In this document: positions 36,313 through 43,749 of the stretch, piece after piece
Layout: the number at the start of each line of letters is the position of its first letter
Position numbering within the stretch: the stretch's first letter is position 1
Assembly: GCA_947625185.1 (NCBI GenBank)
Contig: CANQNJ010000001.1
Span: 72,771-129,580, forward strand
Length of the DNA stretch: 56,810 nucleotides
Reading direction: 5' to 3'
Source: an uncultured Clostridia bacterium
GTDB lineage: Bacteria > Bacillota > Clostridia > Christensenellales > CAG-314
Position numbers and translations under genes: made by a program
Notes under the pieces: model-generated
The model's input: the letters and a program-made list of their open reading frames with translations, nothing else
The model's database searches: none
What the model was told of the DNA's origin: nothing

Positions 36313-36444
36313 ATGAAACAGAAAAAAGAAATGCCCGAAGTAGTGATTCCTGCGGGATATAACCTTGACGAAGTAATGGACTTCGATGATGACGACTTTG
36401 GGGGAAGAACCAATTTTGACGGAGGAGGTGAGGTTGCGTTTTGA
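36313..36444 (+). CDS. Small acidic protein, 43 residues, coupled to ArdC-like fragment
   Basis: The ORF starts with ATG after GGAGG (gttggaggaaaa) and encodes MKQKKEMPEVVIPAGYNLDE followed by VMDFDDDDFGGRTNFDGGGEVAF. Its TGA overlaps the TTG start of the next ORF, a layout of translational coupling. It has a run of four aspartates and a glycine-rich end, and no recognised family. The good ribosome-binding site and tight coupling argue for a real gene. The function is unknown; it belongs to the mobile-element part. Confidence 0.6.
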   Translation: MKQKKEMPEVVIPAGYNLDEVMDFDDDDFGGRTNFDGGGEVAF

Positions 36445-36929
36445 GTGACGTGATAAACAATGAAATCTATGACAAACTGACTCCTCAAAGAAAACAACTT
36501 GTCGATGCCGTTTTGAAAAATCTCGAAAAGCAACATGGACTTTGGCAACAAGGTTGGGTTTACATCGGTACGCCCGTATCGGCTGTCACGGGGAAAAAGT
36601 ATCACGGAATAAACAACTTTTTTCTGACGATTGCGGCGATGTCAAACGGCTATTCCGATAATCGTTGGGCAACGTTCAATCAAATCAAGGACAAAGGTTG
36701 GGAGTTCAAAACCGATGCGGAGGGAAATTCTCTCGGTAAAGGCGCAGGCGTCGCTATTGAGTTCTTTGAACTTCGTGACAGGGAAACACGGCAACCTTTT
36801 GACAGGCGCGTTTTAGACGGCATGAGTGCGGACGAGCGCGAGGTGTACAAGGACGGATATCCCGACGAGTTCGCTATGGAACTGTTGAATGAGGCCGGGA
36901 TACAAGTAGACCGTTATTCGGACCTGTAA
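36441..36929 (+). pseudogene. ArdC-like N-terminal domain fused in frame to a dCMP deaminase tail
   Basis: Residues 1-133 match the N-terminal single-strand-DNA-binding domain of ArdC-like antirestriction/replication proteins of plasmids and integrative elements: HGLWQQGWVYIGTPVSAVTGKKYHGINNFFLTI, then NRWATFNQIKDKGWEF and AGVAIEFFELRD. From residue 135 the sequence is that of the deaminase C-terminus (VYKDGYPDEF to YSDL), shared with the gene at 33826. The join is in frame at a GCGCG microhomology. The catalytic part of ArdC is absent. Start is TTG with GGAGGAGGTGAGG upstream. It is a recombination product and probably non-functional as ArdC. Confidence 0.8.
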
Positions 36930-41369: not shown

Positions 41370-42209
41370 ATGCTTGATTTTCTGAAAAATATTGTGAATG
41401 AAGGCACAACGGTTCTCGTATCGAGGATAATTTTTGTGTTGGCGCTTACATTCGTATTTTATTTGTTCTTCTATTACGCAAAGAAACGCAACTTGCAGTT
41501 ATACACCTACATAGTGGTGGGCGTCATTGTGGTACTGTTTGCATTGACATTCCTGATCGGTGCGGGAGAATTGCGTATTTATGTCTACGTTGCTTTGATA
41601 CTGTTATCGGTTCTCGGATTGATGTTGTTCATATCCGATATCAACCGGCACATATTTCGTTTGTCCCTCAAACGAAAGTTCTTCCGTGAGAATCTTGCCG
41701 ATCACTACGGCAGCGAGGATCTGTCCAAGTCGGTTGGAGAGATTGTCAAGTCTTGCTTGCGCCTTTCCAAGACGGATACGGGAGCGCTGATCGTCATCGC
41801 CGATCATATGTCCGACGAGATACTCGACTCCGGTATCAAGATCAATTCCGAAATCACGGCAGAACTTATCGAGACGCTGTTCTTCCCCAAGACGCCGTTG
41901 CACGACGGCGCCGTGATAATAACGGCAAACAGGGTGGCAAGCGCGGGTTGTTATTTGCCGCTTACGCAAGCGCAGAATCTTCCGCGGGAGTTCGGCACTC
42001 GTCATCGCGCGGCGATAGGCGTGGCTGCAGCGTTTCCCGATTGCACGGCAATAGTCGTCAGCGAAGAAACGGGCATTATTTCCGCAATGCACGACGGCAA
42101 GATCAAGCGCTATCTCGATAGCCGTCAACTGCAAGATATCCTCGACTGCGCAATGGGATTGGCGGACGAGAGCGCCGAAGAAAGACTTTGGGGAGAGAAA
42201 GAACAATGA
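41370..42209 (+). CDS. cdaA: Diadenylate cyclase CdaA
   Basis: The 279-residue membrane enzyme makes cyclic di-AMP from two ATP. Three hydrophobic segments (about 17-35, 43-62, 68-90) precede the DAC domain with the catalytic DGA motif in KTPLHDGAVIIT and the RHR motif in GTRHRAAIGVA. AAGGT precedes the ATG at 41370. In most Bacillota cdaA is followed by cdaR (YbbR domains) and glmM. Here the next gene is a 42-codon membrane microprotein overlapping by 4 bp, and no YbbR domain is visible. Confidence 0.96.
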   Translation: MLDFLKNIVNEGTTVLVSRIIFVLALTFVFYLFFYYAKKRNLQLYTYIVVGVIVVLFALTFLIGAGELRIYVYVALILLSVLGLMLFISDINRHIFRLSLKRKFFRENLADHYGSEDLSKSVGEIVKSCLRLSKTDTGALIVIADHMSDEILDSGIKINSEITAELIETLFFPKTPLHDGAVIITANRVASAGCYLPLTQAQNLPREFGTRHRAAIGVAAAFPDCTAIVVSEETGIISAMHDGKIKRYLDSRQLQDILDCAMGLADESAEERLWGEKEQ

Positions 42210-42334
42210 AAAAGAAAAAAGGAATGACAGCTTCGCAAAGAATAGCACATTTTTTCAAACACTATTTCGTACTGCTTTTGCTTGCGCTCGGATGCTCGGT
42301 GCTAACCGTGTTGCTTATTGCTTTCTGCGCGTAG
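42206..42334 (+). CDS. Single-pass membrane microprotein coupled to cdaA
   Basis: This 42-residue ORF starts in the ATGA overlap at the cdaA stop. Its N-terminus is basic (MKKKKGMTASQRIAHFFKHY) and is followed by one hydrophobic helix (FVLLLLALGCSVLTVLLIAF), so it would sit in the membrane with its start inside. It takes the place where cdaR is usually found. It may be a small CdaA partner or just a conserved membrane peptide; no family is recognised. The strong terminator 57 bp further on ends the transcript. Confidence 0.65.
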   Translation: MKKKKGMTASQRIAHFFKHYFVLLLLALGCSVLTVLLIAFCA

Positions 42335-42390
42335 CATAACGACCTCTCGGCGGCGTAAGGCATAGCCGGGATCAATAAATTGTATTGCAG

Positions 42391-42426
42391 AACCGATCTC
42401 ACCGATAAAGAGGTCGGTTTTTTTTT
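42391..42426 (+). terminator. Terminator of the cdaA operon
   Basis: AACCGATCTC pairs with GAGGTCGGTT (one wobble) and is followed by nine T. Confidence 0.9.
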
Positions 42427-42690: not shown

Positions 42691-43749
42691 ATGATCGTGG
42701 CAAAATTCGGCGGTACGGCGGTAACGCCGCGCAATCTGATTTACGTTAAACGTATCGTGACGGAAGCTCATGGCGCGGTGGTGGTAAGCGCGGTCGGCAA
42801 AGAATTCAAAGAGGACCGCAAGGTTACGGACTTGCTTCTCGCCTATCGCGCGCGTCCCGATGACGGCATCTGGCGGCTGATCGCGGATAAATATCGCCGT
42901 TTGGCAGAGGTAAACGCGGTGGACGTCGATGTGGACGCATTGCTCAAAGACGCTCAGCGGCGCGCTCTTTTGCACGACGGGCAGTACTGCGCTTCGCTCG
43001 GAGAGGAGCTTTCGGCAAAGATAACGGCAAAGTTTCTCGGGGCGGATTACGTCGAGGCGGAAGACGTCGTCCGTTTCGACGAGAACGGCGACTTGCTTGT
43101 TGAGGAAACATATTCCAACATTCGCGCTGCGTTTGACGGGGGCAAACTGTCGGTAATGGGAGGATTTTACGGCTCTACCGTCTGCGGACGGCATACTTTT
43201 TCTCGCGGAGGCGGCGACGTCAGCGGCGCGATCGTGGCGGCAGCTCTCAATGCCTCGCTGTATGAGAATTGGACGGACGTCAGCGGAGTATGTATTGCCG
43301 ACCCCGCCAAGATACACAATGTGGCAAGCGTGGAGGGCATAGGCTATTCCGAAATGCGTCTTTTGTCTCGTTCGGGCGCGGAAGTACTGCATCCCGACGC
43401 GATCGAACCGTGCGAACGGTTGGGTATCCCGATAAAAATCGGCAACTTTTATTGTCCCGACGGTGCAAGCACGCTTGTATCGCGCTGTCCGTCCCGATGC
43501 AGGTTGCTTTCCGTCGCAGAGAAAGCCGCGGACGGCGTCTTTGTCACGACTGTATTGCATAGTTATCCGCAGTGGCAGATGACTCGCTTGATCTCGCATT
43601 TTTTACATTCGCAAACAAACGAATTGCGATTTTTTAACGTTGGTTATACCGTTGAACCCGATATCTCGGCAGAGTTTTCCGATCATATTGTCCGCTTGAC
43701 ATCCCGAGTATCCATTCTCGATCCGCTGTATAAATCGTTGACGCTGTGA
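42691..43749 (+). CDS. lysC: Aspartokinase with shortened regulatory region
   Basis: The 352-residue enzyme phosphorylates aspartate, the first step to lysine, DAP, threonine and methionine. Motifs are VAKFGGTAV (KFGGTSV), YCASLGEELSA, GFYGSTVCGRHTFSRGGGDVSGA (family GFxGxxxxGxxTTLGRGGSD) and WTDVSGVCIADP. After the kinase domain (to about 265) only some 85 residues remain, enough for about one ACT-like unit rather than the usual two. Feedback control by lysine may therefore differ. The Shine-Dalgarno site is weak. It is a single gene. Confidence 0.9.
   Translation: MIVAKFGGTAVTPRNLIYVKRIVTEAHGAVVVSAVGKEFKEDRKVTDLLLAYRARPDDGIWRLIADKYRRLAEVNAVDVDVDALLKDAQRRALLHDGQYCASLGEELSAKITAKFLGADYVEAEDVVRFDENGDLLVEETYSNIRAAFDGGKLSVMGGFYGSTVCGRHTFSRGGGDVSGAIVAAALNASLYENWTDVSGVCIADPAKIHNVASVEGIGYSEMRLLSRSGAEVLHPDAIEPCERLGIPIKIGNFYCPDGASTLVSRCPSRCRLLSVAEKAADGVFVTTVLHSYPQWQMTRLISHFLHSQTNELRFFNVGYTVEPDISAEFSDHIVRLTSRVSILDPLYKSLTL

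Follow-up and report, generated by a model that had tools for sequence, protein, structure and literature searches.

In the window analysed here, a stretch of 56,810 nucleotides, the diadenylate cyclase gene cdaA is followed by a small ORF that begins inside the cdaA stop codon, at the position where the gene of the YbbR-domain regulator CdaR lies in other bacteria, directly after cdaA and often with an overlapping start. In the preliminary description, this ORF could be a CdaA regulator in minimal form or the leftover of CdaR's membrane anchor. The ORF is here termed mini-CdaR. Parts of PMC10243994 (citing Rismondo 2016 and Gibhardt 2020) and PMC8573169 state that CdaR touches CdaA through the transmembrane parts of both proteins. 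In an excerpt of PMC5207132, two of several suppressors of a ybbR deletion in Staphylococcus aureus were altered in membrane helix 3 of the cyclase, and a section of PMC13289029 reports that CdaR was enriched in the co-immunoprecipitation of the Streptococcus mutans cyclase. The mode of action of CdaR on CdaA is described as unclear in passages of PMC8573169 and PMC5207132. No description of an anchor-only CdaR was found among the open-access papers searched, as far as titles and abstract openings tell.

The cyclase of the window possesses both active-site motifs, HDGA at residue 178 and RHR at residue 211, and AlphaFold2 (mean pLDDT 82.8) predicted membrane helices at residues 13-39, 43-62, and 65-106 together with a DAC fold. 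It provided the only DAC match in its genome, which is 95.87% complete. The DAC domain, three predicted membrane helices, and active-site motifs are shared with the known CdaA proteins (TIGR00159); however, the TIGR00159 score was 158.8 bits, under the equivalog cut-off of 188.8, and the N-terminal domain PF19293 was not listed for this protein (the CdaA of locus L155 scored 23.7 bits against a cut-off of 23.8). No solved structure spanning the membrane part of CdaA was found; the chain of 9g69 includes this part in its sequence, and its title names the DAC domain with GlmM. Foldseek and VIA-align searches over the membrane part returned nothing past weak matches, mostly to unrelated helical bundles, and no near phage match was found. 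The c-di-AMP riboswitch RF00379 yielded zero matches in the 41 genomes of the window's family (E ≤ 0.01 and stricter filters). The features of the locus are listed in the table.

Table. Features at and around the cdaA locus (window coordinates unless a locus is named)
Feature	Position	Strand	Evidence
cdaA, membrane diadenylate cyclase, 279 aa	41370..42209	+	DAC Pfam E 1.1e-38
CdaA membrane domain, three predicted helices (residues 13-39, 43-62, and 65 to approximately 97)	41406..41660	+	AF2 model, hydropathy
DAC catalytic domain, residues 127-244	41748..42101	+	Pfam PF02457; HDGA and RHR motifs
mini-CdaR, 42-aa single-helix ORF	42206..42334	+	ATGA overlap with the cdaA TGA
Predicted membrane helix of mini-CdaR, residues 15-42	42248..42331	+	hydropathy; alignment and hhalign chain to the CdaR anchor
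Small-xxx-small motif, Ala27-x3-Ser31	42284..42298	+	Ala/Gly/Ser in 105/105 aligned anchors
Terminator-like 12-pair hairpin and T run closing the cdaA-mini unit	42389..42426	+	folding, shuffles
Aspartokinase-like frame (KFGG-type)	42691-43749		
Diaminopimelate dehydrogenase gene, divergent from cdaA	40163-41233	-	TIGR01921, 214 bits
BspA-type leucine-rich-repeat protein, 824 residues	37479-39953		LRR_5, 3.1e-117
Short ArdC-like frame	36441-36929		anti-restriction factor ArdC N-terminal domain, 2.8e-19
g92 anchor-CdaA fusion	L175 1651-2745	+	
g92 anchor-CdaA fusion	L176 1743-2801	+	
g92 anchor-CdaA fusion	L191 1753-2838	-	

The product of the small ORF, MKKKKGMTASQRIAHFFKHYFVLLLLALGCSVLTVLLIAFCA, has one hydrophobic segment, and a GGGGAG stretch ends 10 nt upstream of its ATG. 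The preliminary description of a 42-codon single-helix ORF that starts in the cdaA stop codon, with no cdaR behind it, was thus accurate. The same description placed a strong terminator after the ORF. The hairpin and T run are present; 5 of 200 shuffles folded equally well (z -2.45), and terminator-like sites numbered 5 in 1.7 kb versus 2.3 ± 1.5 in shuffles. The evidence for a terminator at this position is moderate.

The gene that follows in the operon is not glmM; the hairpin and the aspartokinase-like gene occupy that place instead, and a glmM-like gene lies elsewhere in the genome (G000 contig 9, 334 bits, below the cut-off of 447.55). A KFGG-type aspartokinase-like frame was observed within 900 nt after cdaA in 12 of 39 loci of the family, including the window, and in 5 of 67 other loci. 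A frame with a CDQF-type motif, which we take to be DUF1015, was observed within the same distance in 8 of 39 and 51 of 67 loci, respectively. With the diaminopimelate dehydrogenase gene on its other side, the cdaA of the window stands between two lysine/DAP-pathway genes. Farther upstream, the leucine-rich-repeat protein carries HTHTF...HWHAA repeats close to its N-terminus, and the short ArdC-like frame is a possible mobile-element remnant.

The preliminary description had also allowed for a YbbR-domain gene elsewhere in the genome. None was found in the genome of the window, in which the YbbR domain PF07949 had 0 matches at E ≤ 10 and an order-specific profile identified no full CdaR at E ≤ 1. 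The second profile was run because PF07949 misses divergent CdaRs: in 11 of 23 loci from other orders a CdaR-like protein could be recognized by eye, and PF07949 missed all 11 at E ≤ 0.01. Among the 41 family genomes, no PF07949 match exceeded the cut-off (22.3). The best, at 21 bits, was a 190-residue frame on contig 16 (420-584; L046) of G023, a genome of the window's genus, and the order-specific CdaR profile did not match this frame. G023 is unusually large (2.4 Mb) and has 4% contamination, and the frame may be foreign DNA. We also rejected a cdaR divided in two, with the YbbR part at another site, since the window's genome has no recognizable YbbR protein.

We then turn to the conservation of the small ORF. 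The cdaA gene was found in 40 of the 41 family genomes, and 39 of these loci were readable beyond the cdaA stop (in G039 the contig ends inside the gene). All 39 carried a single-helix ORF at the end of cdaA, with a length of 37-49 residues when the earliest start was used. As a chance control, such ORFs with starts from -30 to +20 nt of the stop occurred at 3 of 348 other gene ends, one of them a mini-CdaR, and at 20 of 348 when the range was widened to +140 nt. The pooled pN/pS of the mini-CdaR in the window's genus (11 genomes) was 0.193, compared with 0.071 for the cdaA segment, and the differences per codon position were 0.24, 0.08, and 0.455. Four further sets gave 0.306, 0.340, 0.438 (two sequences only), and 0.326, and in each of the five sets the mini-CdaR exceeded cdaA in pN/pS. 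In eight disjoint pairs, the 24 helix codons showed 62 nonsynonymous changes versus 117.5 ± 5.2 in random expectation, and 0 of 5000 randomizations were as low. The mini-CdaR evolves under purifying selection. Conservation and selection together reject a spurious ORF. A frameshifted start of a longer CdaR, which the preliminary description had named as a contrary outcome, was rejected as well, because in different genera of the alignment the ORF stops only a few residues from the end of the helix, and because it is under purifying selection. The ORF is conserved in relatives; by descent it is a remnant, though not one in decay.

The origin of the mini-CdaR was examined by comparison with 30 full CdaRs, taken from the loci of the best-scoring CdaAs in the window's order. 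All have an anchor that follows the pattern RN-WGLKLLSLLFAVILWGYV; Trp occurs in 30 of 30, Ser/Ala in 30 of 30, and Lys in 25 of 30. Mini-CdaRs of other genera and families resemble the beginning of CdaR, as in G032 (...VNNIVLKLLALLAAVVIWLLVGYLFV) and G124 (...CENWGLKIFALLFAAFVWLMLSLV); the anchor Lys and Trp are missing from the window's genus. An HMM of the 30 anchors (29 columns; best-domain scores with bias added back) gave minis up to 30.1 bits. Twenty-five of 56 minis scored above all 200 of their own shuffles with helix composition kept; the 31 that failed include the single f9 mini and all three of f29. Sixteen of 56 exceeded the best unrelated control (10.9 bits) among 850 hydrophobic ORFs, a set that also held CdaRs and some minis with another start, which account for most of the rows above 10.9 bits. 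The mini-CdaR of the window scored 2.5 bits, and 18 of its 200 shuffles were equal or better.

Profile-to-profile comparison by hhalign linked the minis of the window's genus to the other minis of the family at 97.7%, the latter to the full CdaR at 95.6%, and the minis of other families to the full CdaR at 95.5%. The direct link from the window's genus to the full CdaR reached 34.3%, still over all 60 permutations; with 60 column-permuted controls per query, the maxima for the three queries were 2.1, 9.1, and 9.4%. For the most independent homology test of the mini-CdaR, 16 full CdaRs were combined in a 426-position profile and the 41 whole family genomes were searched with it. This search returned three matches at E ≤ 1 (2.0e-4, 0.029, and 0.23, in G032, G040, and G026), all of which were the mini-ORF beside cdaA and fell inside CdaR positions 5-41; no match was obtained in the other 38 genomes, including that of the window. 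The window's own mini-CdaR is too derived to reveal the link to CdaR alone, and the link runs through intermediate genera.

The gene position of the mini-CdaR directly after cdaA is that of CdaR, and both proteins have one N-terminal membrane helix with the same small-xxx-small motif. Unlike CdaR, the mini-CdaR has no YbbR domain and terminates close to the outer helix end, and in the window's genus it has lost the anchor Lys and Trp. Profile comparison, the search of whole genomes, the place of the gene, the phylogeny, and the fusions described below give good support to the view that the mini-CdaR corresponds to CdaR's N-terminal membrane anchor, the extracellular YbbR domains having been lost. 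The anchor origin suggested in the preliminary description is borne out in this sense. We regard the mini-CdaR as a CdaR derivative by descent and do not class it among the YbbR proteins, since a search for the domain that defines them found none.

Small-xxx-small motifs are a known helix-packing face. In one MAFFT alignment of 105 anchors (30 full CdaRs, 50 from other genera including the fusions and the extended form, and 25 from the window's genus), every sequence had Ala, Gly, or Ser at both motif positions, all 30 full anchors as well as all 75 that are anchor-only, fused, or extended; the background of these residues in the helix columns of anchor-only forms was 26.4%. The single-helix length and the motif are kept over seven families.

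To describe the distribution of the anchor, we drew 297 genomes from the order. YbbR was found above the cut-off in 100 of them and at E ≤ 0.01 in 103, and CdaA in 265; at least 162 of the 265 CdaA genomes consequently have no YbbR match. We read 106 loci, one per genome, comprising the 39 of the family and 67 from 14 other families that were hand-picked from families without a YbbR match and are not a random sample. These counts omit L031-L045 (named records, partly of the same species as G genomes) and L064 (contig ends inside cdaA), and L156, L168, and L142 were replaced by longer stretches of the same genomes (L191, L192, and L194). A stand-alone mini-CdaR followed cdaA in 71 of the 106 loci read over these 15 families (f1 39/39, f9 1/1, f15 6/6, f19 5/5, f20 1/1, f29 3/3, and f32 16/20). 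Its earliest ATG, GTG, or TTG overlapped the cdaA stop in 46 of the 71 and lay 0-20 nt downstream in 21 more. The remaining four f32 loci also have the anchor, as three fusions and one extended form. In genus g92, the anchor is fused to the N-terminus of CdaA without a downstream mini-CdaR (3 of 3 genomes in the draw), as in FVRDLRFKILAVVIGGLLWLVTVGLG ahead of the three CdaA helices. In locus L185 (G302), the anchor stands at the end of a 128-residue ORF directly after cdaA, with GYPKTG-type repeats in an N-terminal tail that is probably cytoplasmic. The anchor was absent in 31 of the 106 loci (f3, f6, f8, f10, f14, f17, f24, and f30) and is therefore not indispensable.

Outside the order, a survey of the class found YbbR in 246 of 291 genomes at E ≤ 0.01. 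From 34 genomes of other orders in the same class without a YbbR match (9 identified directly and 25 by inference), 23 cdaA loci were obtained. Inspection by eye revealed 6 CdaA-CdaR fusions, 5 divergent full CdaRs, 11 loci with none, and 1 that was cut off; the anchor-only form was found at none of the 23. The fusions, with a C-terminal anchor and an outer part, are L212-L217 of f56 and f74, and the loci without CdaR after cdaA are L197-L202, L204, and L206-L209 of f70, f79, and f88. Like the g92 proteins, the f56 and f74 fusions and the streptococcal CdaA-CdaR fusions described in part of PMC10243994 hold CdaA and a CdaR anchor on one chain; however, their anchor lies behind the DAC domain, with a long outer part after it, whereas g92 has a bare anchor before the CdaA membrane domain.

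An unrooted CdaA tree was constructed by a quick method with SH-aLRT support (110 rows, 289 columns; 28 of the 39 family loci and 16 of the 30 full-CdaR loci, with L154 left out). The YbbR-less loci of the order fell together in a clade with a support of 100; within it, the anchor-less loci made up a single subclade (87), and the fusions likewise grouped together (100). The five labels (full, mini, none, fusion, and extended form) required four changes on this tree, which is the minimum. We treated full CdaR as the ancestral state, since it occurs generally across the class. Most simply, the YbbR domains would have been lost once while the anchor was kept, and the anchor would later have been lost once and fused once.

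The membrane domain of CdaA was compared between pairs with 50-60% DAC identity; sequence pairs are not independent, the full-CdaR set comprised the best-scoring CdaAs and 20 lower-scoring ones, L203, L211, and L213-L216 were omitted, and the membrane-domain identity was on average 0.200 in the mini clade, 0.425-0.475 with full CdaR, 0.262 in the anchor-less clade, and 0.457 in the 11 other-order genomes without CdaR after cdaA. The poor conservation in the mini clade indicates that the mini-CdaR does not hold the CdaA membrane sequence tightly. The idea that the CdaA membrane domain was released from constraint by sensor loss was rejected, since the 11 genomes of other orders in which no CdaR was seen after cdaA keep the domain conserved; CdaR loss alone thus does not explain the looseness. 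In the model of the g92 fusion, a separate anchor helix at residues 28-47 (pLDDT approximately 60-76) was predicted alongside the three CdaA helices. A structure alignment that placed the minis on CdaA helix 1 was not used.

These findings suggest that the conserved helix alone does a job on CdaA. We consider it probable that the mini-CdaR is a stand-alone CdaR anchor that was left after YbbR loss and now most likely serves the CdaA membrane domain as a fixed structural subunit. The YbbR domains would have been lost in this order close to the root of a large clade, leaving an anchor of approximately 40 residues. Through the overlapping start, the mini-CdaR may be made in step with CdaA, and it would insert with its lysine-rich N-terminus inside. 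The g92 fusion fits this predicted topology, because CdaA, with three helices and the DAC domain inside, starts outside, where the anchor ends. The conserved small-xxx-small face may pack against the CdaA helices, so that the mini-CdaR could help CdaA to assemble, to stay stable, or to hold the arrangement that sets basal c-di-AMP synthesis. The g92 proteins, in which the anchor is joined to CdaA in 3 of 3 genomes, lend indirect support to a putative binding of the mini-CdaR to CdaA. The helix contact of CdaR would be kept and the sensor lost, with no outside input via YbbR. A bolder proposal, to which we give slightly less than even odds, is that a single membrane helix is the only portion of CdaR hard for this clade to lose, and that this helix, encoded in approximately 42 codons, by itself became a purely intramembrane subunit or switch, with the sensor dropped and the CdaA membrane domain remodelled around the helix.

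The strongest competitor to a fixed structural subunit is a regulator with a new input, in which the anchor is now an active intramembrane switch, such as an inhibitor that tunes CdaA by its own level or by the membrane state. Excerpts of PMC11520302 and PMC9259658 report that loss of CdaR/YbbR raises c-di-AMP in S. aureus and Porphyromonas gingivalis, respectively, so the parent CdaR can be an inhibitor, and the long repeat tail on the L185 anchor would also suit such a role. However, the sign of CdaR action is disputed, with conflicting findings on activator or inhibitor in parts of PMC5207132 and PMC8573169, and a section of PMC12422730 on Chlamydia discusses YbbR as a limiting factor in making c-di-AMP. 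We judge an active switch of this kind rather unlikely.

Still less probable is a vestige, that is, a short and harmless cdaR leftover beside cdaA that no longer acts on CdaA. The derived clade that lacks the anchor in 31 of 31 loci, the poorly conserved CdaA membrane domain of the mini clade, and the excess of mini over cdaA pN/pS in all five sets would be expected of a vestige; nevertheless, the purifying selection on the mini-CdaR, the helix length and motif retained over seven families, and the anchor carried intact at the CdaA N-terminus in g92 argue against it, and decay over such depth would bring stops and frameshifts. An unrelated small membrane protein recruited beside cdaA, resembling the anchor in hydrophobicity only, is very improbable: the window's copy is not significant alone and 31 of 56 minis do not exceed all their shuffles, but the gene position is that of cdaR and the overlap similar, the full-CdaR profile matches whole genomes only at the mini-CdaR, the hhalign links of approximately 95% stand against permuted controls of at most 9.4%, and the fused and extended forms keep the small-xxx-small motif.

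AcrZ, KdpF, and MgrB are single-helix bacterial microproteins that modulate a membrane protein. By analogy, the mini-CdaR is single-pass and a few dozen residues long; it differs from them in its origin as a truncated regulator. The order presents a natural truncation experiment, in which the sensor is gone and the helix is kept in seven families, fused in one genus, and absent in one clade. This natural series would separate the function of the helix from that of the sensor. The g92 fusion offers a natural construct for a structure, the small-xxx-small face offers a target to mutate, and the mini-CdaR itself may offer a 40-residue tool for the control of the CdaA membrane domain.
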